From an uncultured Burkholderiales bacterium (lineage in GTDB: Bacteria; Pseudomonadota; Gammaproteobacteria; Burkholderiales; Burkholderiaceae_C), in NCBI GenBank assembly GCA_902825995.1, contig CADEDE010000014.1, positions 1 to 46,937 on the forward strand: a stretch of 46,937 nt of DNA, read 5' to 3'. A model generated the notes under the pieces. That model ran no database searches and was not told the DNA's origin. It saw only the letters and a program-made list of their open reading frames with translations. The translations under genes and the position numbers were made by a program. Position 1 is the stretch's first letter; the number at the start of each line of letters is the position of its first letter. This document shows positions 18,328 to 40,288 of this stretch, piece after piece.

Positions 18328-21105
18328 ATGAATACCCCCCTGCTTCGATGGACCCTGGTGCTCGCCCTCATGTCAGGTGTCGGCTTGATGGCCGCATGCG
18401 GCGGCGACGATCCCGAAAAATTGCTGGCCTCGGCCAAGACCTATCTGGCCAAGGGCGAGTTGCGGTCGGCAGTGATCGAGTTGAAATCGGCACTGCAAAA
18501 GAAACCCGATTCGCCGGAGGCCCGCTTCCTGCTCGGCAAGGCGCTGTTGGCCAGCGATGAGCCGGTGGGCGCGGCGCTCGAGTTGCGCAAGGCGCTGGAG
18601 TTCAAGCACCCGCGCGACATCGTCGTGCCGGAGCTGGTCCGAGCCCTGCTCGATCAGGGGCAGCACAAGGAAGTCATCGCCCAGTTCGGCGATGCCAGCC
18701 TCGATGACAAAGTGGCGCTGGCCAGCCTGAAGACAACGCTCGGCCTGGCGCATGCCCGCGGCGGCGCCGGGCCGGCTGCCATGGCGGCATTCAAGCAGGC
18801 GCTCGAAGCCGAGCCCACGCATGTACCAGCGCTGACCGGCATGGCCCGGCAACTGGCGGCCGATGGCGAGCATGAAGCCGCCATCAAGGCCACCGCCGAA
18901 ATCATTGCAGCGGGCAAGCCCGATGCCGACACCTGGTCGCTCCAGGGCGACCTGCTGGCCTTCGTCAAGAACGACAAGGGCGGTGCGATCGACGCCTACC
19001 GCAAGGCCATCGGTATCGTCAAGGACCACCTCCCGGCCCATGCCGGCATTGTGCAATTGCAGGTCGGCACCGGTGACACCCAGGGCGCGGCCGCGCAGGT
19101 GGCCGAGCTGCAAAAGGTGCGACCCGGCCACCCGACCACACGCTACTTCCAGGCCCAGGTGGCCTACCTACAGGGCGACCACAAGGCGGCGAAGGAGACC
19201 GTGCTGCAGTTGCTCAAGGGTGCGCTCGAGCAGCCGCAGCTGAACCAGTTGGCCGGCGCCATCGAGCTTGCGTCCGGCTCGAACGAGGCGGCCCGCACGT
19301 ACCTGAGCAAGGCGCTGCAAGCGGCGCCCAACAGCATCGTGGCGCGCCGCCTGTTGGCCAATGTGTCGCTCAAGGCCGGCGAGGCGAATAAGGCGCTCGA
19401 AGTGCTGCAACCCTTGCTGGCGCAGGCATCGCCCGACAGCGTGGCGCTGGCCGTCGCCGGCGAGGCCTATATGCAGCTGGGCGAGCTTGACAATGCGAGC
19501 GCGATGTTTGCCCGGGCTGCCAAGGCCAATCCGGCGAATACCAACAACCTCACGGCACTGGCGCGCACGCGCTTCCTGAAAGGCGATGCCGCTGGCGCAG
19601 TGGCCGACCTGCAGCAGATCGCGGCGTCCGACAGCGGCACCGTGGCCGACTTGGAGCTGATCAACACTCAGCTGCGCCGCCGTGATTTCCAGGCTGCGCT
19701 GAAGGCCATCGACGGCCTGGAGCGCAAGCAGGCTGGCAAGCCTTTGTCGGCACAACTGCGCGGTGCGGCGCACCTGGGGCTCAAAGAGCGTGCCCAGGCG
19801 CGTGCGAGCTTCGAGAAGGCGCTGTCGATCGACCCGACCTACTTCCCGGCGGTCTTCAACCTGGCCGCCCTCGACATTGCCGACAAGAAGCCGCAAGCGG
19901 CGCAAGAGCGCTTCCAGGCCATTCTGAAGCTGCAACCCGGGCACTTGCGCGCGCTCCTGACGCTGACCGATCTGCGGGTCCGCAACGGCGCCAGCAAGCA
20001 AGAGGTCGCCGAGCTGCTGGCGACGGCGGTGCGGCTCAACCCCAAAGAAGCGTCGGCCCACCTGGGCCTCGTCAACCACCACCTTGGCAACCAGCAGACC
20101 GAAGCCGCCTTGGCGGCCGCCCAGCAAGCGGATGCGGCCTTGCCCGGGCAACCGGCGATCCTCGACGCCCTCGGGCGGGCACAACATGCGGCCGGCCAAC
20201 CGAACCAGGCGCTGGCCACCTTCAACAAGCTCATGGCGTTGCAGCCCGGCCATCCGCTGGCCCACATGCGCATCGCCGAGATCAAGATCGCAGCGAAAGA
20301 CAACGATGCGGCTATCGAAAGTCTCAAACGCGCCGTGGCCGCAAAACCCGACGCTGTATTGCCCGTGCAGCGCCTGTTCGCCGTCGAAGTTCAGGCCGGT
20401 CGCTACGCCGAGGCGTTGAAGCTGGCGCGCGACCTGCAAAAGCGCCAGCCGGCACACAGCCTGGGATATGTCTTCGAAGGCGATGCGCAGCGCGCACAGA
20501 AGAATGACGCCGCGGCACTCGCCGCCTACAAGACGGCACTCGGCAAGACCGCGCCCGACATTGCCGCACCCCGGTTTCACAGCCTGTTGGCGGCAACAGG
20601 CCGGAAGGCCGAAGCCGACCAGTTCGCCAAGACCTGGGCCAAGGATCACGCCAACGACGTGCCGTTTGCCATCTATCTGGGTGACAACGCCCTGGCGCGC
20701 AAGGACTATGCAGGCGCCGAGGCGGCCTATCGGCGCGTCATCGAACTACAGCCTCACCACGTGGCGTCGCTCAATAACATTGCCTGGTTGATGGTCAAGA
20801 CCCAGCAAGCGGGCGCGCTGCCCTTTGCGCAGAAGGCCAACGAACTGCTGCCGAATCAGCCGGCCTTGATGGACACGATGGCCGTGGTGCTGGCGGCCGA
20901 AAATCGCATCGACCAGGCCATCGAGCTGCAGAAGAAGGCGCTGGCTCTCGCGCCCGACAGCAACACGCTGCGCTTGACCCTCGCGCGTTTGCATCTCCAG
21001 GCCGGGCAGAAGCCGCAGGCGCGCGAACTGCTCGAGGCGCTCGGCAAGCTGGGCGAGAAGCTGCCCGAACATGCCGAGGTCAAGAGCCTGTTGGCGGGTC
21101 TTTGA
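18328..21105 (+). CDS. prsT: XrtA/PEP-CTERM TPR lipoprotein PrsT
   Basis: A 925-aa lipoprotein: the signal helix ends in the lipobox LMAAC with Cys24. The remainder is a long solenoid of tetratricopeptide repeats, with recurring A-x-x-x-F/Y-x-x-A-L helices and PxxxxA turns. It matches TIGR02917 in length and layout. TPR lipoproteins of this kind are thought to scaffold polysaccharide secretion across the periplasm. It starts 21 bp after prsR and is the last gene of the left arm. It converges on the nucleotidyltransferase gene with only 10 bp between them and no visible terminator. Confidence 0.94.
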   Translation: MNTPLLRWTLVLALMSGVGLMAACGGDDPEKLLASAKTYLAKGELRSAVIELKSALQKKPDSPEARFLLGKALLASDEPVGAALELRKALEFKHPRDIVVPELVRALLDQGQHKEVIAQFGDASLDDKVALASLKTTLGLAHARGGAGPAAMAAFKQALEAEPTHVPALTGMARQLAADGEHEAAIKATAEIIAAGKPDADTWSLQGDLLAFVKNDKGGAIDAYRKAIGIVKDHLPAHAGIVQLQVGTGDTQGAAAQVAELQKVRPGHPTTRYFQAQVAYLQGDHKAAKETVLQLLKGALEQPQLNQLAGAIELASGSNEAARTYLSKALQAAPNSIVARRLLANVSLKAGEANKALEVLQPLLAQASPDSVALAVAGEAYMQLGELDNASAMFARAAKANPANTNNLTALARTRFLKGDAAGAVADLQQIAASDSGTVADLELINTQLRRRDFQAALKAIDGLERKQAGKPLSAQLRGAAHLGLKERAQARASFEKALSIDPTYFPAVFNLAALDIADKKPQAAQERFQAILKLQPGHLRALLTLTDLRVRNGASKQEVAELLATAVRLNPKEASAHLGLVNHHLGNQQTEAALAAAQQADAALPGQPAILDALGRAQHAAGQPNQALATFNKLMALQPGHPLAHMRIAEIKIAAKDNDAAIESLKRAVAAKPDAVLPVQRLFAVEVQAGRYAEALKLARDLQKRQPAHSLGYVFEGDAQRAQKNDAAALAAYKTALGKTAPDIAAPRFHSLLAATGRKAEADQFAKTWAKDHANDVPFAIYLGDNALARKDYAGAEAAYRRVIELQPHHVASLNNIAWLMVKTQQAGALPFAQKANELLPNQPALMDTMAVVLAAENRIDQAIELQKKALALAPDSNTLRLTLARLHLQAGQKPQARELLEALGKLGEKLPEHAEVKSLLAGL

Positions 21106-21115
21106 AGGCCCTGCG

Positions 21116-22225
21116 CTACGGACTTGCCGTGGCGGGCTCCTCATGCAGTCGCAGGGCCTTGACGGTCAAGTGCCGTAGCAGCAAGACCGGCGGCATGCGC
21201 AGCCAGTGCGCACGCACATAAAGCGCAAACAGGGCCAGCGGCGTCAACGCATCGGAGGCCGTGGCGTGCCGTGGGCGCAGGGCCCGCCCCCACAGCCAGT
21301 CGTTCAGTGCCGATACCAGCCGGCCTGGGCCGGCCTCGCTGGACACGTCCAGCGTATCGCGTGGGACGGGCGTCGCAAGCAATTTGCTCGTATAGCGCAA
21401 ACCGTAGTGCAGCGGGCGCGACAAGTCGAGCTCGCGGGCGCGCACTACCAGTTCGGACCAGAAGCCCGGCGTGCGACCGAGGTGGCGCAGCATCAGGTCG
21501 AGGTCCGACAGGTCGCGTAGGCTGTGACTCAGGTCGTCGTTGTGGAACAGATGCACCATGCTGTGCAGGATCATGTCAACCGGGTTCAGCACGGCAAAAC
21601 GCTGCAGGTTCGCCAGCGGGCGTGCGCTGGCCAGCAGCTTGGCCGAGCTGGGCTTGAGCCGCGCCGTCTCGGGCAGGATGGCGTGATGCACGTCGAGCAC
21701 GTTCTGGCGCTGGATGTGGCGCAGCGGCGGCAGCTCGTGCATCCACTCGCGGTAGTAGCGCTGGTCGTAGGCCGAGTGGTGCGTGGTGGCCCAGCCGTGC
21801 GCCATCAGCGCGGCCTCGACCTCGGCCAGCCGACTCTTGGGCACCATGATGTCGATATCCGTGAACACCCGCCCCATGGCCGGCAGCAGGCCGCCGGCGA
21901 CGTAGGCAGCGCCCTTGAGCAGTACGGGCCGCACGCCGATGGGCGCCAGCGCACGGTCGATGCAATCCAGCTCGCGCAGGGCTTCCGCGTGCTGGGCCTC
22001 AGCCAGTGCGATGGCTGCTTTCAGGTGCGCGCGTGGCGCGCCGGGCACCGTATCGATCGAGCCCTGTGCCTCCAGCATGCAGGCGATGCGGCCCAACAGC
22101 CCGGCCCGCCGCGCCTGGCGCACCAGGACATCCCAGCCGGCCAGCGTCAGCGCCGACAGCTGCTGCGGCTGGCGCAGCGCTGCGCAGACCAGATCCGCGC
22201 CGACGGGGCTTGCCGAGGCGGTCAT
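21116..22225 (-). CDS. Nucleotidyltransferase-family protein of the HPr-rel-A block
   Basis: A 369-aa protein of the nucleotidyltransferase family often found beside HprK-related kinase A. Residues around 115-145 (PVLLKGAAYVAGGLLPAMGR, then FTDIDIMV) give the Gly-rich helix and the D-x-D metal site of the polymerase-beta-like fold. A helical region follows with LHSMVHLFHNDD and LRDLSDLDLML. ATG 22225 overlaps the stop of the kinase gene by 4 bp, so it is translationally coupled. It is the last gene of a four-gene leftward block. It may transfer a nucleotide to a protein or small molecule; the target is unknown. Confidence 0.85.
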   Translation of the reverse strand: MTASASPVGADLVCAALRQPQQLSALTLAGWDVLVRQARRAGLLGRIACMLEAQGSIDTVPGAPRAHLKAAIALAEAQHAEALRELDCIDRALAPIGVRPVLLKGAAYVAGGLLPAMGRVFTDIDIMVPKSRLAEVEAALMAHGWATTHHSAYDQRYYREWMHELPPLRHIQRQNVLDVHHAILPETARLKPSSAKLLASARPLANLQRFAVLNPVDMILHSMVHLFHNDDLSHSLRDLSDLDLMLRHLGRTPGFWSELVVRARELDLSRPLHYGLRYTSKLLATPVPRDTLDVSSEAGPGRLVSALNDWLWGRALRPRHATASDALTPLALFALYVRAHWLRMPPVLLLRHLTVKALRLHEEPATASP

Positions 22226-23139
22226 CGCGCGTTCCGGGCGAGTTGGTCGAACGCGGCCACGGCCTCGGGCAGGCTGCTGTAGCTGAACTCGTGGCAATCG
22301 CTGCGGTCGATCACGTCGGCGAAGGCCGCGAACCCACCGCGGCCATGCACGTTGTAGTTGAAGGCATTCTCTACCAGGGTCATGAACGCGCGGGCTCGCG
22401 ACAAGGGCTGCCATTGCGCGGCGGCGCCCGCTGCATAACGCGGCAATACCACCCACGCCGGCAGGGCCGACCGGTCGGCGCGCAGCACAGCCTCGGCCGG
22501 CGGACGCACATGCGCGACGCGGCCTTTGACGGTTTCACGCACCACCTCGCCGAACAGCGCCGCCGGAGTGAACCCGCGTATCGCGTCGATCGACTCGTTT
22601 TTCAGGCTCACCGGCCTGGGCAGCGGCACCAGGTGGCCGTTGGCAGGGTCGATCAGTGCCAGTTCGTCGGACAACAAGCGCCAGCCGCCGCCAAATACCA
22701 GGCCGGCGCACAAGGTGCTTTTGCCCGAACCCGAGGGCGCCGGCAGGATCAGCGCCCGGCCACCGCGTTCGAGCACGGCGGCGTGGACGATCAGGTATTG
22801 ATGGCAATGGCTCGACACACACCAATTGAGCCCCCATTCGAGCATCGCAAATCCCTGGTCGCCGGGCAGCGGTGCAAACGGCACCGTGCCGTCGAAGCGA
22901 AAGACCACCTGCTTATCGATCCAGCGGCGGAGGCTGTGCGGGCGTTCCACGCTGACATGGAAATCGGCAAAGCCTTGCGCGGCCTCGACCGTATGCTGTG
23001 CGTAGTGCAGTGCAATACCGCGGCGCACGGCGAGAAGCGGCGAGCGGATGCGCGTGACCACCGGGCCGGTGCGCAGGCGCAAGCCACCTTGCCGCAAGCA
23101 CCTGTCCAGGGCCGGCGGTGCGAGATCCTCGACGATCAA
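22222..23139 (-). CDS. HprK-related kinase A
   Basis: A 305-aa protein related to the C-terminal domain of HPr kinase. It has the Walker A PAPSGSGKSTL, then LLSDELALID (the HprK-like strand after the P-loop) and the PLPRPVSLKN segment. In HprK the nucleotide-binding loop serves protein phosphorylation; no HPr gene is seen here. I infer a TTG start at 23139 that overlaps the stop of the PqqD-like gene (TTGA). The longer ATG reading would run through that gene. It belongs to the HPr-rel-A system named for this kinase, whose biological role is unknown. Confidence 0.85.
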   Translation of the reverse strand: MIVEDLAPPALDRCLRQGGLRLRTGPVVTRIRSPLLAVRRGIALHYAQHTVEAAQGFADFHVSVERPHSLRRWIDKQVVFRFDGTVPFAPLPGDQGFAMLEWGLNWCVSSHCHQYLIVHAAVLERGGRALILPAPSGSGKSTLCAGLVFGGGWRLLSDELALIDPANGHLVPLPRPVSLKNESIDAIRGFTPAALFGEVVRETVKGRVAHVRPPAEAVLRADRSALPAWVVLPRYAAGAAAQWQPLSRARAFMTLVENAFNYNVHGRGGFAAFADVIDRSDCHEFSYSSLPEAVAAFDQLARNAR

Positions 23140-23432
23140 GTGAGATTCGCCCGCGCCAAGCCCAGGGCTTCGAGCTCGCTCAGCACGGCCAGCAGGCTTT
23201 GGGTATCGGTGGGGGCATCGGAAAATGTCGCGGTCAAGGCCGCAGTCGCAGCGCTCGGCGGCGGGCAGTCGGCAAATACCCGCGCGGCAATTTGGTCGAT
23301 GTAGCCGGCACCGTCGCGAATGGCCTTCAGCGCTTCGCCCGCGAGCGCCGACAAAAGATAGGTTTGCGCCGTCGATTCCAGACGCGCGACAAACTCGCCG
23401 TTCCACTCGCGCCAATCTAGCTGTCCCGGCAC
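23136..23432 (-). CDS. HPr-rel-A system PqqD-family protein
   Basis: A small protein of about 98 aa with the PqqD-like pattern. An N-terminal WREWNGEFVARLES beta segment is followed by TYLLSALAGEALKAI and a winged-helix-like C-terminal helix (SLLAVLSELEALGLA). PqqD proteins bind peptide substrates for modifying enzymes. The start is uncertain: GTG 23432 gives family length, while the frame stays open upstream to about 23546, overlapping the upstream gene. Its stop overlaps the TTG start of the kinase. It lies between a secreted-looking protein gene and the kinase, which suggests it presents a peptide to them. Confidence 0.8.
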   Translation of the reverse strand: MPGQLDWREWNGEFVARLESTAQTYLLSALAGEALKAIRDGAGYIDQIAARVFADCPPPSAATAALTATFSDAPTDTQSLLAVLSELEALGLARANLT

Positions 23433-23470
23433 CGACCAGCGGCCGAACTCGGCCGCTGCGTCGAGCGGAC

Positions 23471-24097
23471 TCAGACCGGCATGGTGGACTTGAGCCACGG
23501 CGTGATGCCGCCCGTACCTGCCGGCACGGAGTAATCCGGGTACCACTTGATGCCCGCGGTGGGCTCATAGTAGCCATTGGTGACGAACGCGCGCCAAACC
23601 GCCTTGACGGTTGTTACGCTGAGCACATTGGCCGGCGTGAGGCCCTTCTTGGCATTCAGCAGCGCGGCAACAATGTGCCTCGCCAACGCATCGCGGCCCA
23701 TCGAATTTCCTTGCAACTCCAGCACTTGCAGCAGCGTTTTGCCGGCGTAGCCACCCGCAGAGCCAAACACATCATCGAACTTCGTGGCGCCGGAGCCGGT
23801 CGCCACGAAGGGCGCTGGCCATTGACCGAACCACCGAGGCTGCTTCCAATAGCCCGGCGTGCGGCCGGAGCAACTGAACAACAGATCAGGTCGGCTGGCG
23901 TTGATCGAAGCGAACGAGGACGCGGGAACACAAACGCCGCCACCGGCCATGACCGAGCGAGGCGTTGACACCATCAATACGGGCGCAGCACTCAGACCGC
24001 CGCGCAGCAGGCGACGGCGGGCAACCGAGGTCGCCTGCCGGCCTTCCGGTACACCACCACCCGTCGCGGGGACTGGCTGATTCGGCTTGTCATTCAT
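23471..24097 (-). CDS. Secreted GYWK-motif protein, first gene of the HPr-rel-A block
   Basis: A 208-aa protein I can only partly place. Residues 27-45 (ARRRLLRGGLSAAPVLM) look like a twin-arginine signal with a short hydrophobic core and an alanine-rich end near residue 51. The mature part has two cysteines, the motif CSGRTPGYWK followed by PRWFGQW, a helical ARHIVAALLNAKKGL segment and a Trp/Tyr/Pro-rich end. There is no PEP-CTERM sorting tail and no enzyme motif. Its stop lies 38 bp before the GTG start of the PqqD-like gene on the same strand. It is a candidate client of the downstream kinase or nucleotidyltransferase; that is inference. Confidence 0.75.
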   Translation of the reverse strand: MNDKPNQPVPATGGGVPEGRQATSVARRRLLRGGLSAAPVLMVSTPRSVMAGGGVCVPASSFASINASRPDLLFSCSGRTPGYWKQPRWFGQWPAPFVATGSGATKFDDVFGSAGGYAGKTLLQVLELQGNSMGRDALARHIVAALLNAKKGLTPANVLSVTTVKAVWRAFVTNGYYEPTAGIKWYPDYSVPAGTGGITPWLKSTMPV

Positions 24098-24601
24098 GGT
24101 GACGCGATTCTATCTAGTGCTTCCCTGGGCACAAGCGCTGCTTATCCCGCATTCGGTGGGGCCGGCGCGGTAGAAGTTGTCACTGGAATGCCGGTCATTG
24201 TGCCCGGGCACTTTGGAGCCTGGCGTCGATGGATTCAGGGGCTGCAGCTTGGCCACCCTCGCCCTCGCCGGGCCAATGCGCTGTCGCCAATCCTTGCAAA
24301 TCAATAACTTAACCGCAGCCTGCCACAAAACCCGGGTCGCCACAAAGCGCTTCGACACGGGGCCGAGACAAACCCTCCGGGTCAGTTTCGCAACGCTGCG
24401 GTTTTGCAGCAACTTTCGTTCATTAGTGCGCATGGCTGCTTCCAGCCCTCGATTTGCGGCATTGTGGCTTGCTGGCGTGAGCCCTTAATCTCTGCCAGTT
24501 GTGCCTAGAATGGCATTGGCGCTCAAGTCAGCGCGCACTCTGCGAAATCCGGCTCGTGCGCACAGGTACAGGTCTGCGAATCTGCTCATCGGAGGTTGGT
24601 C
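24098..24601. other. Divergent intergenic region, HPr-rel-A block / export operon
   Basis: 504 bp without a convincing gene; the short open frames lack start context and family features. It separates two divergent operons and should hold both promoters. A GGAGG at 24591-24595 serves the GTG start at 24602. A weak sigma-54-like site is at 24127-24142. The region is more AT-rich than its neighbours around 24290-24330. Confidence 0.6.
24127..24142 (+). promoter_or_regulatory. Weak sigma-54 (-24/-12) promoter candidate
   Basis: GGGCAC-N5-CTGCT places GG and GC exactly 10 bases apart, as sigma-54 requires, with 5 of 6 matches at -24 and a poorer -12 element. It faces the export operon, but its 460-bp distance from the GTG at 24602 is long. 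PrsR in this locus is a sigma-54 activator, which is why the site is recorded. Confidence 0.25.
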
Positions 24602-25237
24602 GTGCAACAAATTACCAGGGCCGCACTGCGCGGGGCTCGCAAATTTTTCGGGCTGGCGCTGGCTTTGTCGCTGGCCGCGTGCGCGGGACCCAACGCTAAC
24701 CTGCCGCCAGCGCCGACGAGCGCGGCGATTGAAAATTACTCCTACGTCATCGGCGCAGGCGACACATTGAATATCATCGTCGCGCGCAACCCCGAGTTGT
24801 CGATGGCGGTGCCGGTGCGACCCGACGGCAAGATCTCGGCGCCCTTGGTCGACGAGATGCTGGCCCAAGGCAAAACTTCGGTCCAGGTCGCTCGCGAACT
24901 CGAAGAGCAGCTCAAGAAGTATGTTCGCGACCCGGTGGTCACCGTGGTCGTAACGAACATCGTGGGCTCGTACAGCGAGCAGGTGCGGGTGGTTGGCGAA
25001 GCGGCCCGCCCACAGTTCCTGCCCTACCGCCAAAAGATGACTTTGCTGGATGTCATGATCGCCGTCGGCGGGCTGACGGATTTTGCCGCGGGCAACAAGG
25101 CGACCATCCTGCGCACCACCGAGGGCAACAAGCAATACTCGGTGCGCCTGAAGGACTTGATCAAGGGCGGCGATATCTCGGCCAATGTCGAAATGCGCCC
25201 CGGCGATGTCCTGATCATTCCGCAGAGTCTTTTCTGA
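24602..25237 (+). CDS. XrtA-system polysaccharide export lipoprotein (Wza-like)
   Basis: A 211-aa outer-membrane export protein. The signal helix ends in LAAC with Cys27 as the lipid-bearing residue. A polysaccharide-export (poly-export) domain follows: YVIGAGDTLNIIV, VRPDGKISAPLV, then an SLBB-type domain (VRVVGEAARP, TLLDVMIAVGGLTDFA) and the closing MRPGDVLIIPQS. It matches the PEP-CTERM export family TIGR03027. The start is GTG 24602, 6 bases after a GGAGG, rather than the TTG at 24596. It is the first gene of the right arm. Confidence 0.94.
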   Translation: MQQITRAALRGARKFFGLALALSLAACAGPNANLPPAPTSAAIENYSYVIGAGDTLNIIVARNPELSMAVPVRPDGKISAPLVDEMLAQGKTSVQVARELEEQLKKYVRDPVVTVVVTNIVGSYSEQVRVVGEAARPQFLPYRQKMTLLDVMIAVGGLTDFAAGNKATILRTTEGNKQYSVRLKDLIKGGDISANVEMRPGDVLIIPQSLF

Positions 25238-32424: not shown

Positions 32425-33984
32425 ATGAACCGTGGCGGCGCAAATCCCGCGCGCCGGGCCTGGGGTCCGACGGCCACTGCCATCGTCACGCTCATCTTGG
32501 CGACGATCTGGCTGTACCGCGATACCGCACTTGGATTGGTCACGCTCTGGGGCCAATCGGAAACATTCGCGCATGGCTATATTGTTCCGTTCATCACGCT
32601 GTGGTTGCTGTGGCGGCAGCGCGCAACCCTGGTGGCTCTCGCGCCCACGTTCAGGCCTGCGCCGTCGGCACTGATTGCCATGGCTGCGGTGGCGGCGATC
32701 TGGCTTGTCGGCGACGTCGCCGAAGTCAATCCGCTGCGTCAATTCGCATTCGTCGCATTCATCGCCCTGTCCGTTCCAGCGTTGGCCGGCTGGCCGGCGG
32801 CGCGCGTCCTACTCTTCCCGCTCTGCTTTCTGTTTTTCGCCGTGCCGTTCGGGGAGTTCCTGCTGCCCTGGCTGATGGAGCGCACGGCCGACTTCACTGT
32901 GTTCGCGCTGCGCTTATCCGGGATTCCGGTGTACCGCGACGGCTTGCAGTTCGTCATTCCCTCGGGAACCTGGTCGGTGGTCGAAGCCTGCAGTGGCGTG
33001 CGCTATCTGATCGCATCGCTGATGGTCGGCGCGCTGTATGCCTATCTCAACTACCGCTCGACCCGGCGCCGCATGCTGTTCATGCTGGTGGCACTGGTCG
33101 TGCCGATCGTTGCCAATTGGCTGCGCGCGTACATGATCGTGATGATCGGGCACCTTTCGAATAACAAGCTGGCGGTCGGTGTCGATCACCTGATTTACGG
33201 CTGGTTGTTCTTCGGCGTCGTCGTGGGCCTCATGTTTCTGATCGGTGCGCGCTGGTCCGAAGCGCCTGTCGATGCAGTCCCGGTCGTGCCAGCGCAAGAC
33301 CATCCAATCCGACCCGGCGGCGGCCGAGGCCTATGGGCGATGTCGGCAGCCGTATTGGCCTTGCTTGTCCTGCCTGGGCTCGTGCTTCAGGCCCTGGATA
33401 CAGGTAAAGACCACGGTACGCCACAACTGGCCGCGCCCGCCATCGCCGGCGATGGCGTGGTCGGCGACGGTGTGTTGCCGGCCTGGACGCCAGCCTTTGC
33501 GAACCCATCGGCCACTGTGGAGCGCCGCTACCGCCTGCGCGGGCAACCGGTGGGCTTCTTTATCGGCTACTACCGCGGCCAGGATCCGGAGCGTAAATTG
33601 GTGAGCTCCAACAATGCCCTGGTGCGCGCCGGCGATCCGTTCTGGGTGGTGGCCGATTCGGGCAGCCGCAGCGTCGATATGGGCAAGCACGATCTCGTCG
33701 TCGGAACGGCGCGCCTGCGCCGCCCCCTGTCGTCGTCCGACACCACCACGCTGGCCGTGCGCCAGATCTACTGGGTCAATGGCCGGTTCGAGGCGAGCGA
33801 CGTTCGCGCCAAGGCCTGGGGCGCCTGGTATCGCCTGCTGGGCCGTGGCGACGACGCTGCGGTGGTCATCGTCTATGCGACCGAGCAGCGCCCGGGCGAT
33901 GCCGATGCGCGGCTCGACGCCATCCTGCGCGAGCACCTCGCGGCCATCGATCTTCAGTTGAGGCAGGCGCGCGATGGCGACTGA
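32425..33984 (+). CDS. xrtA: Exosortase A fused to an EpsI domain
   Basis: A 519-aa membrane protein. Residues 1-280 form the exosortase: about eight membrane helices carrying the transpeptidase-like triad Cys189 (EACSGVRYL), Arg234 (NWLRAY) and His255 (VDHLIYGW). After a linker and another helix, residues about 330-519 are an EpsI/DUF3485 domain (RYRLRGQPVGFFIGYYRGQ, RQIYWVNGRF). Exosortase A recognises PEP-CTERM tails, cuts them and passes the protein to an envelope acceptor. ATG 32425 lies 13 bp after the FemAB stop. The glycosyltransferase gene overlaps its end by 11 bp. Confidence 0.96.
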   Translation: MNRGGANPARRAWGPTATAIVTLILATIWLYRDTALGLVTLWGQSETFAHGYIVPFITLWLLWRQRATLVALAPTFRPAPSALIAMAAVAAIWLVGDVAEVNPLRQFAFVAFIALSVPALAGWPAARVLLFPLCFLFFAVPFGEFLLPWLMERTADFTVFALRLSGIPVYRDGLQFVIPSGTWSVVEACSGVRYLIASLMVGALYAYLNYRSTRRRMLFMLVALVVPIVANWLRAYMIVMIGHLSNNKLAVGVDHLIYGWLFFGVVVGLMFLIGARWSEAPVDAVPVVPAQDHPIRPGGGRGLWAMSAAVLALLVLPGLVLQALDTGKDHGTPQLAAPAIAGDGVVGDGVLPAWTPAFANPSATVERRYRLRGQPVGFFIGYYRGQDPERKLVSSNNALVRAGDPFWVVADSGSRSVDMGKHDLVVGTARLRRPLSSSDTTTLAVRQIYWVNGRFEASDVRAKAWGAWYRLLGRGDDAAVVIVYATEQRPGDADARLDAILREHLAAIDLQLRQARDGD

Positions 33985-37113: not shown

Positions 37114-38351
37114 TGTCCTTGCGCATCCTCCACGTCCTCGACCACTCCACGCCGCTACACAGCGGCTATACGTTTCGCACGCTTTCGATCCTCGCCGAGC
37201 AACGGCGCCTGGGCTGGCAGACCTTTCACCTCACCAGCCCCAAACACACCGCGGGCCTGGCGAGCGAAGAGGAAATCGACGGTTGGCACTTTTTTCGCAC
37301 CCCGGGTGCTGCGGTCGGCGGCGCGCGCCTGCCCGGCATGGCCGAGTTCGATCTGATGCGCGACCTCGAGCGTCGCCTGCAAACGGTGGTCGAACAGGTG
37401 CGACCGAACATCCTCCACGTGCACTCGCCGGTGCTCAACGCCCTGCCCGCGCTGTGGCTGCGGCGGCGCCTGAATGTGCCGGTGGTCTATGAGATGCGCG
37501 CCTCGTGGGAAGACGCTGCCGTCGATCACGGCACCACCCAGGAGGGCAGCCTGCGCTACCGCCTGTCGCGCGCGGTCGAATCGTTTGCGCTGCGCCGCGC
37601 CGACCAGGTGACCACGATCTGCGAGGGCCTGCGCAGCGATATCGCCGTGCGCGGCGTCGCCGACGACAAGATCACCGTGATCCCGAATGCCGTCGATGTG
37701 GCCAGCTTTCGGTTCGGCGTCGCGCCCGACCACGGCCTGCAACAACGCCTGGGCCTGCAGGGTGCCACCGTGCTCGGTTTTGCCGGCTCGTTCTACCACT
37801 ACGAAGGCTTGCACCTGCTCATCGAAGCCGTGCGCCGGATGCGGCCACGCCACCCGCAACTGCGCGTGCTGCTGGTCGGCGGCGGGCCGCAGGACGCGGC
37901 GCTGAAGGCGCAGGTGGCGCAGGCCGGGCTGGAGGGTTGCGTGGTCTTCACCGGCCGTGTGCCGCATGCCGAGGTGCAGCGCTACTACGAACTGATCGAC
38001 CTGCTGGCCTACCCGCGCTTGCCGAGCCGGCTGACCGACCTGGTCACGCCACTCAAGCCTCTGGAAGCGATGGCCCAGGGCCGTATCTTCGTGGCCAGCG
38101 ACGTGGGCGGCCACCGTGAGCTGATCGGCCACGGCCAGACCGGTTTTCTGTGCCCGGCCGGCAATGCGGTGGCGCTCGAGGTGGCGCTCGAAGACGCGCT
38201 GGCCCGCCGCAGCGAGTGGCCGGCGATGCGCGCGCAGGCGCGGCGATTCGTCGAGCAGGAGCGCACCTGGGGCAACAGCGTGGCGCGTTATGCCGGCGTC
38301 TATCAACGCGCCTTGCAGGCCCGCGGCCAGCCCGTGCCGGCGGTGGGCTGA
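37113..38351 (+). CDS. XrtA-system glycosyltransferase (TIGR04063-like)
   Basis: A 412-aa GT4 enzyme. Near the N-terminus it has LRILHVLDHSTPLHSGYTFR, a phrase typical of the TIGR04063 family of exosortase A loci. The middle has PVVYEMRASWEDAAVDHGT, and the C-terminal domain has VIPNAVDVASF, GFAGSFYHYEGLHLLIEA and RLTDLVTPLKPLEAMAQGRIFVASDVGGH. It starts in the TGATG overlap with the preceding amidotransferase and ends 8 bp before the second one. Its donor and acceptor sugars are unknown. Confidence 0.92.
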   Translation: MSLRILHVLDHSTPLHSGYTFRTLSILAEQRRLGWQTFHLTSPKHTAGLASEEEIDGWHFFRTPGAAVGGARLPGMAEFDLMRDLERRLQTVVEQVRPNILHVHSPVLNALPALWLRRRLNVPVVYEMRASWEDAAVDHGTTQEGSLRYRLSRAVESFALRRADQVTTICEGLRSDIAVRGVADDKITVIPNAVDVASFRFGVAPDHGLQQRLGLQGATVLGFAGSFYHYEGLHLLIEAVRRMRPRHPQLRVLLVGGGPQDAALKAQVAQAGLEGCVVFTGRVPHAEVQRYYELIDLLAYPRLPSRLTDLVTPLKPLEAMAQGRIFVASDVGGHRELIGHGQTGFLCPAGNAVALEVALEDALARRSEWPAMRAQARRFVEQERTWGNSVARYAGVYQRALQARGQPVPAVG

Positions 38352-38359
38352 CAGCGGCC

Positions 38360-40288
38360 ATGTGCGGCATCCACGGCCTGATCCACTTCGACGGCAAGCC
38401 CGTCGAGTCGGCACTGCTGTCGGCGATGGGCGAGCTGACGCGCCACCGCGGCCCCGACGACGAAGGCCTGCATATCGACGGCGCCTGCGGCATTGCGATG
38501 CGCCGCCTGTCGATCATCGACTTGGCCGGCGGCCACCAGCCGCTGTCCAATGCCGACGATTCGATCTGGCTGGTCTGCAACGGCGAGATCTACAACTACC
38601 GCGAGTTGCGCGCCGAACTGCAAGCCAAGGGCTATCGCTTCAAGACCGGCTCCGATAGCGAAGTGCTGCTGGCGCTGTACGAACTCGAAGGCGACGATTT
38701 CGTGCAACGCCTGAACGGCATGTTCGCATTTGCGCTCTGGGATGCGCGGCGCCGCCGCCTGCTGGTCGGCCGCGACCGCCTCGGCATCAAGCCGCTGTAT
38801 GTGATGCAGGATGTGCGCCGGCTGGCCTTCTCCACCGAGGCCAAGGCCCTGCTCGGCTTGCCGGGTGTGAATACCGAGATTGAGCGCACGGCACTGGCCG
38901 ACTACCTGCACCTGGGCTACGTCGCCGCGCCGCATTGCCTGTTCAAGGGCCTGCGCAAATTGCCGCCGGCCACGCTGCTGGCGGTAGAGGGCGGCCAGGT
39001 GCGCGAATGGCGCTACTGGCGCATCAGCGAGCGCATCGATCGCGAGGCCACCGAAGCGCAATGGATCGAGCGCGCGCGCACGCAGATGCAAGCTTCGGTG
39101 GCGATGCAGATGGTCAGCGATGTGCCGATTGGCGCCTTCCTCTCGGGCGGCGTCGATTCGAGCGCCGTGGTCGGCTATATGGCGCGCCACTCGCAGCAGC
39201 CGATCCGCACCTACGCCATCGGCTTTGAAGGCGGCGAGGCCGAAGCGCTGTACAACGAACTGCCCTACGCCCGGCGCGTGGCGCAACTCTTCGGCACGCA
39301 GCACCGCGAAATCGTCGTCAAGCCCGATGTGGTCGGCCTGCTGCCGCGCCTCTTGTGGCACCTGGACGAGCCGATCGCCGATACGGCCTTCATCACGACT
39401 TACCTGGTCTCGGAATTTGCGCGCCAGGATGTCAAGGTCATTCTCTCCGGCGTGGGTGGCGACGAACTCTTCGGAGGCTACCGGCGCTACCTCGGCGGCC
39501 ACTACGCGCAGCGTTTCCAGGCTTTGCCGAACTGGGCGCGGCGCGCGGCTTCGGTGGTGGCGCGGCGCCTGCCCGCCGATCGTCACACGAAACTGCTCAA
39601 CGTCATGCGTCTGGCCAAGGGCTTCGTGGCCAGCGCCGAAATGGGCGCCGACGAGCGCTACCGCAGCTACCTGCAGGTGATCGGCCGCGAGGCCGTGGCC
39701 GCCATGTTGCTCGATGCACCGCTGGCGGGCGACGACCTGCTCGCGCGGGCCTTTCGCGGCGCCGGCACAACGGACGAATTGAACCGCCTGCTCGCGGTCG
39801 ACGCTGAAACCCAGTTGCCCGACGATCTGCTGCTGCTCACCGACAAGATGAGCATGGCCGTCTCTCTCGAATGCCGCGTGCCGCTGCTCGATCACCAACT
39901 GGTCGAGATGGCCGCTGCGATGCCGGCGAGCATCAAGATCAAGGGCGGCCAGCTCAAGCACATCATGAAGGCCGCACTCGCGCCGATGCTGCCCCGCGAC
40001 ATCCTGCACCGCAAGAAGCGTGGCTTCGGCACGCCGATGGGCGCCTGGTTGAAGAAGGAACTGGCGCCCGTGCTGAAGGCCCTGCTGGCTCCCGAGGTGG
40101 TGCGCGCGCGCGGGCTGTTCAACGCGCCCACGATCAGCGGTTTGATGGCCGACCACGCGGCCAACCGCAGCGACGGTACCGACGCCTTGCTGGCGCTGAT
40201 GAACCTCGAAATCTGGAGCCGGGTCTATCTCGACCGGCGCGAGCCGGCCGATGTGGCCGACGAGCTCAAGCACCACGTCGCCGCATGA
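38360..40288 (+). CDS. Second asparagine synthase-like amidotransferase
   Basis: A 642-aa paralogue of the gene at 35164, with the same architecture: Cys2 (MCGIHG), RLSIIDL, CNGEIYNY and DRLGIKPLY in the glutaminase half. The PP-loop SGGVDSSA starts at residue 262, followed by SGVGGDELFGGYRRY. The two proteins differ clearly in the synthase half, so this is an old duplication. Keeping both suggests two different amidated positions or substrates (inference). Its stop overlaps the start of the next glycosyltransferase gene by 4 bp. Confidence 0.92.
   Translation: MCGIHGLIHFDGKPVESALLSAMGELTRHRGPDDEGLHIDGACGIAMRRLSIIDLAGGHQPLSNADDSIWLVCNGEIYNYRELRAELQAKGYRFKTGSDSEVLLALYELEGDDFVQRLNGMFAFALWDARRRRLLVGRDRLGIKPLYVMQDVRRLAFSTEAKALLGLPGVNTEIERTALADYLHLGYVAAPHCLFKGLRKLPPATLLAVEGGQVREWRYWRISERIDREATEAQWIERARTQMQASVAMQMVSDVPIGAFLSGGVDSSAVVGYMARHSQQPIRTYAIGFEGGEAEALYNELPYARRVAQLFGTQHREIVVKPDVVGLLPRLLWHLDEPIADTAFITTYLVSEFARQDVKVILSGVGGDELFGGYRRYLGGHYAQRFQALPNWARRAASVVARRLPADRHTKLLNVMRLAKGFVASAEMGADERYRSYLQVIGREAVAAMLLDAPLAGDDLLARAFRGAGTTDELNRLLAVDAETQLPDDLLLLTDKMSMAVSLECRVPLLDHQLVEMAAAMPASIKIKGGQLKHIMKAALAPMLPRDILHRKKRGFGTPMGAWLKKELAPVLKALLAPEVVRARGLFNAPTISGLMADHAANRSDGTDALLALMNLEIWSRVYLDRREPADVADELKHHVAA

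Follow-up and report, generated by a model that had tools for sequence, protein, structure and literature searches.

The closest described relatives of the system considered here act on peptides. In the linear polyphosphorylated peptides (LPPs) of Bacillota, the kinase LppK is reported to phosphorylate S3 of the core (PMC13381572), and in lasso peptides of the paeninodin type an HprK-like kinase phosphorylates the C-terminal serine and PsmN is needed for placing a hexose on the phosphoserine, according to a review (PMC9266682). The HPr-rel-A system is represented by family models (TIGR04352, HprK_rel_A; TIGR04353, PqqD_rel_X) that name enzymes only. We analyzed a stretch of 46,937 nucleotides from an uncultured Burkholderiales bacterium (contig CADEDE010000014.1; hereafter, the window) that carries this gene set, with a kinase above the model cut-off adjoined by a PqqD-like gene and a nucleotidyltransferase gene. 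The partner protein, its leader, its serine motifs, and the division into N and C classes described below are new here. A full-text search, with most subscription journals outside its coverage, found no paper naming the HPr-rel-A set, its substrate, or its function. Among the matches listed by the same kind of search, nothing paired exosortase or PEP-CTERM with PqqD or HprK, and queries for GYW peptide strings and for combinations of HprK, twin-arginine translocation (Tat), and a recognition element (RRE) of ribosomally synthesized and post-translationally modified peptides (RiPPs) returned nothing relevant beyond the LPP paper.

Open reading frames (ORFs) and profile models place four minus-strand genes at 24097-21116 of the window. 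The first (23471..24097; 208 aa), which we call the partner, is of the GYWK type and class N, has homologs beside the enzyme trio at other loci, and is the proposed substrate. It is followed by a PqqD-like protein (23136..23498; GTG start; TIGR04353, 18.4 bits), a putative RRE and the proposed leader reader, by HprK-related kinase A (22222..23139; 305 aa; TTG start; TIGR04352, 386.1 bits against a cut-off of 200), and by a nucleotidyltransferase family protein, NTP_transf_5 (21116..22225; 369 aa; ATG start; PF14907, 187 bits against a cut-off of 31). An earlier reading of this DNA from its letters and reading frames (the sequence-only reading) had described the last three genes as coupled by 4-bp stop/start overlaps, and these are indeed present as TTGA at 23139-23136 (PqqD-like gene and kinase) and ATGA at 22225-22222 (kinase and nucleotidyltransferase). 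The partner stop codon overlaps the PqqD-like reading frame, whose start could be either the GTG at 23498, inside the partner gene, or the CTG at 23474, which would create a third 4-bp overlap (CTGA).

We propose, with fair though not full confidence, that these four genes form an RRE-guided protein-modification cassette for one dedicated exported partner. The PqqD-like RRE would bind the twin-arginine-like leader of the partner, the HprK-related kinase would phosphorylate a serine of a short motif close to one terminus of the mature partner (S60 or S64 in the window), and the PF14907 nucleotidyltransferase would add a nucleotidyl or sugar group onto the serine phosphate. The marked and already folded partner would then be exported by the Tat pathway and act at the cell surface, often in producers of XrtA exopolysaccharide. 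We infer the binding of the leader, both steps of the chemistry, the export by Tat, and the role at the surface. What was observed is the gene set, the co-occurrence of the partner, the conservation of leader and motif, the conserved catalytic residues, and a split of the kinase and nucleotidyltransferase trees by motif position, to which a predicted RRE fold is added.

The gene set recurs with great regularity. In three overlapping genome samples, TIGR04352 exceeds its cut-off in 25 of 150 (order), 41 of 369 (class), and 61 of 398 (phylum). From these and other sequences we assembled 143 loci (the window, 24 order loci, 38 class loci, and the best 80 of 153 relatives on GTDB contigs), reduced to 140 by removing three duplicates with identical kinases. 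The kinase has a PqqD-like gene next to it in 139 of the 140, the nucleotidyltransferase is present in 139 (142 of 143 before duplicates were removed), the sole miss lying on a short contig (L165), and a partner with a twin-arginine-like leader accompanies the kinase in 136, a regularity that is not due to chance. One locus (L054) is rearranged, with the partner and the PqqD-like gene downstream of the kinase and nucleotidyltransferase and the PqqD-like gene 3.2 kb downstream.

Partners were called with a hidden Markov model (HMM) of the leader, which replaced a regex-based finder that had called partners wrongly in L133 and L044 and overlooked those of L038, L043, L144, L161, and L172. The model placed a partner upstream in 129 of 140 loci and downstream of the trio in five more (L042, L044, L054, L095, and L103), none of the five being in its training set; within the fetched stretches, neither the opposite strand nor distant upstream sequence gave a match of at least 12 bits. 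The partners of L040 and L108 were recognized by eye, and L090 is truncated by its contig start, so that the RR lies outside the visible sequence. The four loci without a partner are three contig ends and L133, from Phycisphaeraceae, where kinase, RRE, and nucleotidyltransferase occur outside Pseudomonadota and what looks by eye like a transposase gene occupies the place of the partner. In the second half of the L095 locus, two class N partners stand in tandem downstream of a single trio. Of the 136 loci that have 900 nt or more of upstream sequence, 122 show a Tat-like ORF ending directly before the PqqD-like gene; the corresponding counts are 5 of 136 for the opposite strand and 9 of 123 for a position 2 kb further up. 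Leaders of this kind served to train the HMM.

The sequence-only reading had called for a check of whether the GYWK protein co-occurs with the trio. Among the 150 order genomes, a GYWK-partner profile matches 23 of the 25 with the kinase and 1 of the 125 without it (Fisher p ~1e-23, kinship uncorrected), an outcome in its favor. The single match outside the kinase genomes (G108) covers only the GYW domain, within a 1046-aa frame that has neither leader nor serine motif. In 17 of the 23 genomes the partner match extends past the leader and motif region, and in the other 6 it covers that region only. The two kinase genomes left unmatched (G092 and G118) both encode class C partners. With a leader-only profile, the best 20 matches across the 150 genomes (E<=2.1e-5) are all partners in kinase genomes, and the next match stands at 5e-4. 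The sensitivity of both searches is inflated because some profile rows come from those same kinase genomes; the near-absence outside kinase genomes is not.

The leader is one of two features that the partners have in common. In the window it spans 23945..24097 (minus strand), with RRR at residues 27-29 and the stretch RRRLLRGGLSAAPVLMVSTPRSVMA ending at residue 51, a putative cleavage site. Across the family of 97 partners to which it belongs, the twin arginine is near-invariant (first Arg in 93 of 96, second in 96 of 96), and in the leaders it precedes a hydrophobic stretch. A leader end resembling S-x-P-V-[LMW]-[GA] occurs in 60 of 137 partners and in none of 29 generic Tat signals, and P-x-[LIVMF] occurs in 92 of 137 and 7 of 29, respectively, two members of this small comparison set appearing to be misread. 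Generic Tat signals reach 15 bits on the leader HMM, which therefore cannot by itself separate partners from other Tat proteins, whereas the leader-only profile does so at E<=2.1e-5. A TatC gene is present in the genome of the window, but the leaders differ from generic Tat signals in the respects given; export of the partner would probably be by the Tat pathway.

Beyond the leader, the partners diverge widely. Compared at E<=1e-3, the mature regions of 137 partners sort into one family of 97 and 24 smaller, dissimilar groups, and GYWK is the largest of these 25 mature types. The partner is thus not a GYWK protein as such, because those of G092 and G118 belong to class C; it is the leader together with the serine motif, not the GYWK domain, that defines it. 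The earlier suggestion of a protein-modification pathway with the GYWK protein as possible client is supported overall, with the GYWK type as one variety among many and modification of the partner as its predicted part. Class N comprises 106 sequences, among them the GYWK type of the window and nine remote relatives assigned by their N-terminal motif, and carries C-x3-S-[GA]-x2-S-[GA]-N-x-S after the leader. In the window this motif reads C56-x3-S60-x3-S64-x-N66-x-S68 (23894..23932, minus strand), S60 or S64 being the proposed modification site. The sequence-only reading had also advised aligning the family in search of a conserved modifiable residue, and such residues emerged: S60 and S64 are each kept in 96 of 97 members, and they rank among the best-kept residues of a highly divergent family, as does C56 (95 of 95); S68 is kept in 81 of 97 and N66 in 72 of 97. 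Further well-kept mature positions are N148 (93 of 97), C76 (90 of 96), and W93 (89 of 95).

In class C (29 sequences, with mostly unrelated mature parts), the motif lies at the C-terminal end of the protein and reads approximately [ST]-[CA]-[WFYL]-x-S-[FILV]. An unsupervised Gibbs search of the last 40 residues of 30 partners from 17 unrelated groups, from which L046 (low complexity) and the nine remote class N members were excluded, recovered approximately [ST]-x-[SAG]-[CA]-[WYLFM]-[TA]-S-[LIFV]. Its information content is 12.6-12.7 bits, compared with 9.3-10.5 bits in 92 shuffles and 9.9-10.5 bits in a mid-protein control with equal restarts, and with one sequence per group it is 12.9 bits compared with 10.2-11.3 bits in 92 shuffles. 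The C motif stands on its own. Expressed as fixed patterns, the N pattern matches 92 of the 106 partners in class N and 1 of the 29 in class C. The strict C pattern matches 13 of the 29 and none of the 106, and a loose form of it matches 25 and 4, respectively. One identical motif at both ends is not supported, given that a position-specific scoring matrix (PSSM) of the N motif, run on 40 partners outside the main family, puts 13 of its 40 best matches near the C-terminus against 11.1 expected. The same matrix puts 19 of 40 in the first 25 residues against 8.4 expected, representing N-terminal copies in the remote relatives.

The AlphaFold model of the window partner is confident from approximately residue 75, corresponding to the mature folded part, the GYW domain (C76-x-G-x-TPGYWK ... 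LNA; 23471..23872, minus strand), and weaker over the leader and motif. Confidence is 66-69 over residues 51-70, and the serine-motif region is thus possibly flexible. The model has no Foldseek match among solved structures in the PDB (best E 2.1), the window partner matches no NCBIfam family and has one chance-level match in Pfam, and for the partner family as a whole neither database names anything consistent. Very large surface proteins that carry SdrD_B or DUF11/DUF7507 repeats (L231:3519-12182, 2888 aa; L229:302-3439, 1046 aa) also contain GYW domains, which there lack the leader and serine motif and are covered by no reported Pfam or NCBIfam model. This occurrence suggests an extracellular role.

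The position of the motif follows the phylogeny of the enzymes predicted to act on it. Over the 140 loci, 105 were labeled N and 29 C, with 6 unlabeled (L046 and L114 were dropped from the labels). In a FastTree phylogeny of the kinase there is 1 change between N and C, compared with at least 22 (mean 26.3) in 50 shuffles, and one clade with support of 99 contains 29 C and 0 N loci. The nucleotidyltransferase tree likewise requires 1 change, compared with at least 22 in 30 shuffles, and the tree of the PqqD-like protein, a short sequence, requires 9, compared with at least 21 when shuffled. A clean split in the kinase and nucleotidyltransferase trees and a lesser one in the PqqD tree would be expected if the kinase and nucleotidyltransferase read the motif and the RRE reads a shared leader. 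Among named loci, both classes span Beta- and Gammaproteobacteria.

Two plasmid copies that had played no earlier part in the analysis agree with this split. In Vibrio alfacsensis plasmid pVa1 (L232) the leader is followed by CSITSCMSGNASHP and the kinase falls outside the C clade, and in a Sphingomonas parapaucimobilis plasmid (L233) the partner ends in SGYTCFLSVQNPRT and the kinase falls inside it. A candidate partner was found in 47 of 54 further loci and not in the other 7, and 44 of the 47 agree with the clade of their kinase, in a comparison that was not blind, because the patterns were written after the sequences had been displayed, and in which many loci are close kin. The strict C pattern is present in 38 of 41 clade C candidates and the N pattern in 6 of 6 clade N candidates; clade C also holds a single N pattern, clade N has none of the C type, and three motif-less clade C candidates (L249, L258, and L284) look spurious. 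A PqqD-like gene was seen in 42 and a nucleotidyltransferase in 36 of these 54 loci, many of the stretches being short.

The enzymes are consistent with the roles proposed for them. TIGR04353 is matched at E<=0.1 by 57 of 57 aligned PqqD-like members, the window's included, and PF05402 (PqqD) has no match in the genome of the window because the PqqD-like gene is too divergent. The AlphaFold model of the window protein (pLDDT 83.5) has as its nearest solved folds the RREs of lasso pathways with leader peptides bound (5v1v, E 5e-4; 5v1u; 6jx3). The best PDB profile matches of the kinase are HprK structures (1jb1, E 0.0016), and all 25 aligned kinases share H119, K140, D158, and E159. In the nucleotidyltransferase, K104, G105, R119, D123-x-D125, and D178 are conserved in 139 of 139. 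From these residues, both the kinase and the nucleotidyltransferase look active. One could suppose instead that the motif is modified by other chemistry, such as nucleotidylation by the nucleotidyltransferase alone or modification of the motif cysteine, with the kinase domain serving in regulation. The full conservation of D123-x-D125 and D178 and a cysteine that is always present next to the N motif and often within the C motif speak for this idea, yet invariant H119, K140, and D158 in the kinase and the reported phosphorylation of serine as the first step in relatives with the same three enzyme types argue against it, and among the explanations weighed here we give it the least credence.

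The four genes were correctly placed by the sequence-only reading between two rightward arms of an exopolysaccharide locus: they are flanked by plus-strand genes for PrsT (18328-21105; TIGR02917, 724.7 bits) and an XrtA-type export protein (24596-25237; TIGR03027, 234.9 bits), and a profile search puts XrtA at 32482-33261. This setting raises the alternative that the target of the trio is a small molecule or glycan belonging to the exopolysaccharide pathway, the exported protein being a co-regulated surface protein and not a substrate. XrtA exceeds its cut-off in 22 of the 25 genomes with the kinase and in 18 of the 125 without it (kinship uncorrected), and epimerase-, PrsK-, PrsR-, and PrsT-like genes recur nearby, with PrsK in 17, a PEP-CTERM response regulator in 17, PrsT in 15, and an XrtA-type export protein in 8 of the 140 loci, each cluster being named from the NCBIfam match of one representative. 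That small molecules, too, are substrates of HprK-like and NTP-transferase folds counts for the same alternative. Under it, however, an RRE-fold leader reader would be without a role, and one would not expect a leader and serine motif conserved while the remaining partner sequence varies, or a motif position tracked by the kinase and nucleotidyltransferase trees. XrtA and kinase also lie on the same contig some 10-57 kb apart in 8 of the 22 genomes, on other contigs in 12, and far apart on one chromosome-size contig in two (G015 and G107), the last of which weighs against a direct link. We consider this alternative quite improbable.

A broader version of our own proposal, which seems to us rather unlikely as it stands, is that HPr-rel-A is a general surface-tagging system, in which the leader would double as an RRE tag, phosphoserine would be placed at either terminus, the nucleotidyltransferase would make a phosphodiester-linked sugar, and the tagged protein would join or prime XrtA-type exopolysaccharide. 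Apart from this, the Vibrio plasmid copy adjoins 2-aminoethylphosphonate uptake genes and the Sphingomonas copy adjoins pst phosphate transport and glmU/glmS genes. A kinase match on a Methylosinus plasmid (31.6% identity, 61% covered) lies in surroundings where no trio is annotated, three of five kinase-matching plasmid records having been examined.

A true RiPP pathway, in which cleavage of the partner would release a short modified peptide that serves as a signal or antimicrobial, with the large mature domains acting as carriers, would fit the minimal partners of L157 (leader plus GSACISCNASLI) and L259, which are barely more than leader and motif and leave approximately 12-20 residues past the leader. 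It would also fit the highly variable mature parts of class C and the cluster of trypsin-like peptidases near the operon in 26 of 140 loci. The class N mature parts, at 136-245 residues (median 168), are difficult to reconcile with it, as is the predicted fold of the window's. Nor does a dedicated transporter or leader peptidase appear in the 14 largest neighbor clusters, or an SpI-type peptidase or MsbA-like transporter in these or in the window operon, no search having been aimed at them. On balance we regard a RiPP pathway as very unlikely. The trypsin-like cluster (L118, L172, L100, and others) has Pfam Trypsin_2 as the match of its L100 representative, and in L118 and L172 a similar sequence, by eye, ends directly upstream of the partner; the peptidase is a possible processing enzyme.

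Several points weigh against the proposed cassette. The chemistry of partner modification is wholly inferred by analogy, and the nucleotidyltransferase step is weakly supported because deletion of lppN had no visible effect in a heterologous host, as reported in the LPP paper (PMC13381572). The window's PqqD-like protein scores below the TIGR04353 cut-off of 35 bits, and at E<=2.1e-5 the leader-only profile leaves 5 of the 25 kinase genomes unmatched. Concerning export, the RRxF[LIFM]K signature is rare in partner leaders (7 of 137, compared with 13 of 29 generic Tat signals), and in an NCBIfam search the window partner does not match the Tat model TIGR01409, which is matched at E<=0.1 by 1 of 57 family members, most of these rows being trimmed to start at the RR. 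As fixed patterns the motifs fall short of universal, their conservation could reflect folding or binding, and the N and C motifs may be different sites, since the N profile recovers the C motif no better than chance. Simple co-inheritance may, moreover, explain why partner class goes with kinase clade.

Even so, the HPr-rel-A set gains a dedicated partner at nearly every locus and a short predicted modification site, and the kinase clade provides a rule predicting which end of the partner carries that site. If the cassette works as we propose, RRE-guided serine phosphorylation, hitherto tied to small peptides, would reach folded exported proteins of Pseudomonadota, and a single leader would serve both a modification enzyme and an export machine. 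The minimal partners of L157 and L259 are small enough for a direct test.

Comparison with known systems places the cassette near three of them. Like HPr kinase/phosphorylase, the window enzyme is a P-loop kinase that keeps H, K, and D of the His-Lys-Asp-Asp motif, with the second Asp replaced by Glu159 (DE for DD, from a reading of the alignment), and the similarity is detectable over approximately 60 residues around the P-loop only. As in paeninodin and pseudomycoidin, whose pathways combine a B1 RRE, an HprK-like kinase acting on the C-terminal serine, and the nucleotidyltransferase PsmN, the class C motifs lie near the C-terminus. Unlike lasso systems, the window operon, with four genes only, has no macrolactam cyclase or B2 peptidase, and the substrates are mostly proteins. 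An AsnB-like gene (38150-40288) lies approximately 16 kb away in the exopolysaccharide arm; its best model is the XrtA amidotransferase TIGR03108 (542.6 bits, below cut-off), it is above cut-off only for asparagine synthase, and it scores 240 bits versus 525 with the lasso cyclase model. The LPPs, as reported, unite a discrete RRE, an HprK-like kinase, and an NTP transferase in one cluster with a leader-bearing precursor, and all three enzymes are found in the window. Their phosphorylated serine lies near the core start, at a place similar to that of the conserved serine of class N, and their precursors, like the partners, have a conserved N-terminal region and variable C termini. The LPP paper also describes an SpI-type peptidase, an MsbA-like transporter, precursors of 35-200 aa, and hosts in Bacillota, whereas the partners have twin-arginine-like leaders, mature parts of 13-245 residues, two motif positions, and hosts that are nearly all Pseudomonadota. 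By analogy, the best reading is that the cassette would be a Gram-negative, whole-protein counterpart of the paeninodin-type lasso peptides and the LPPs of Bacillota.

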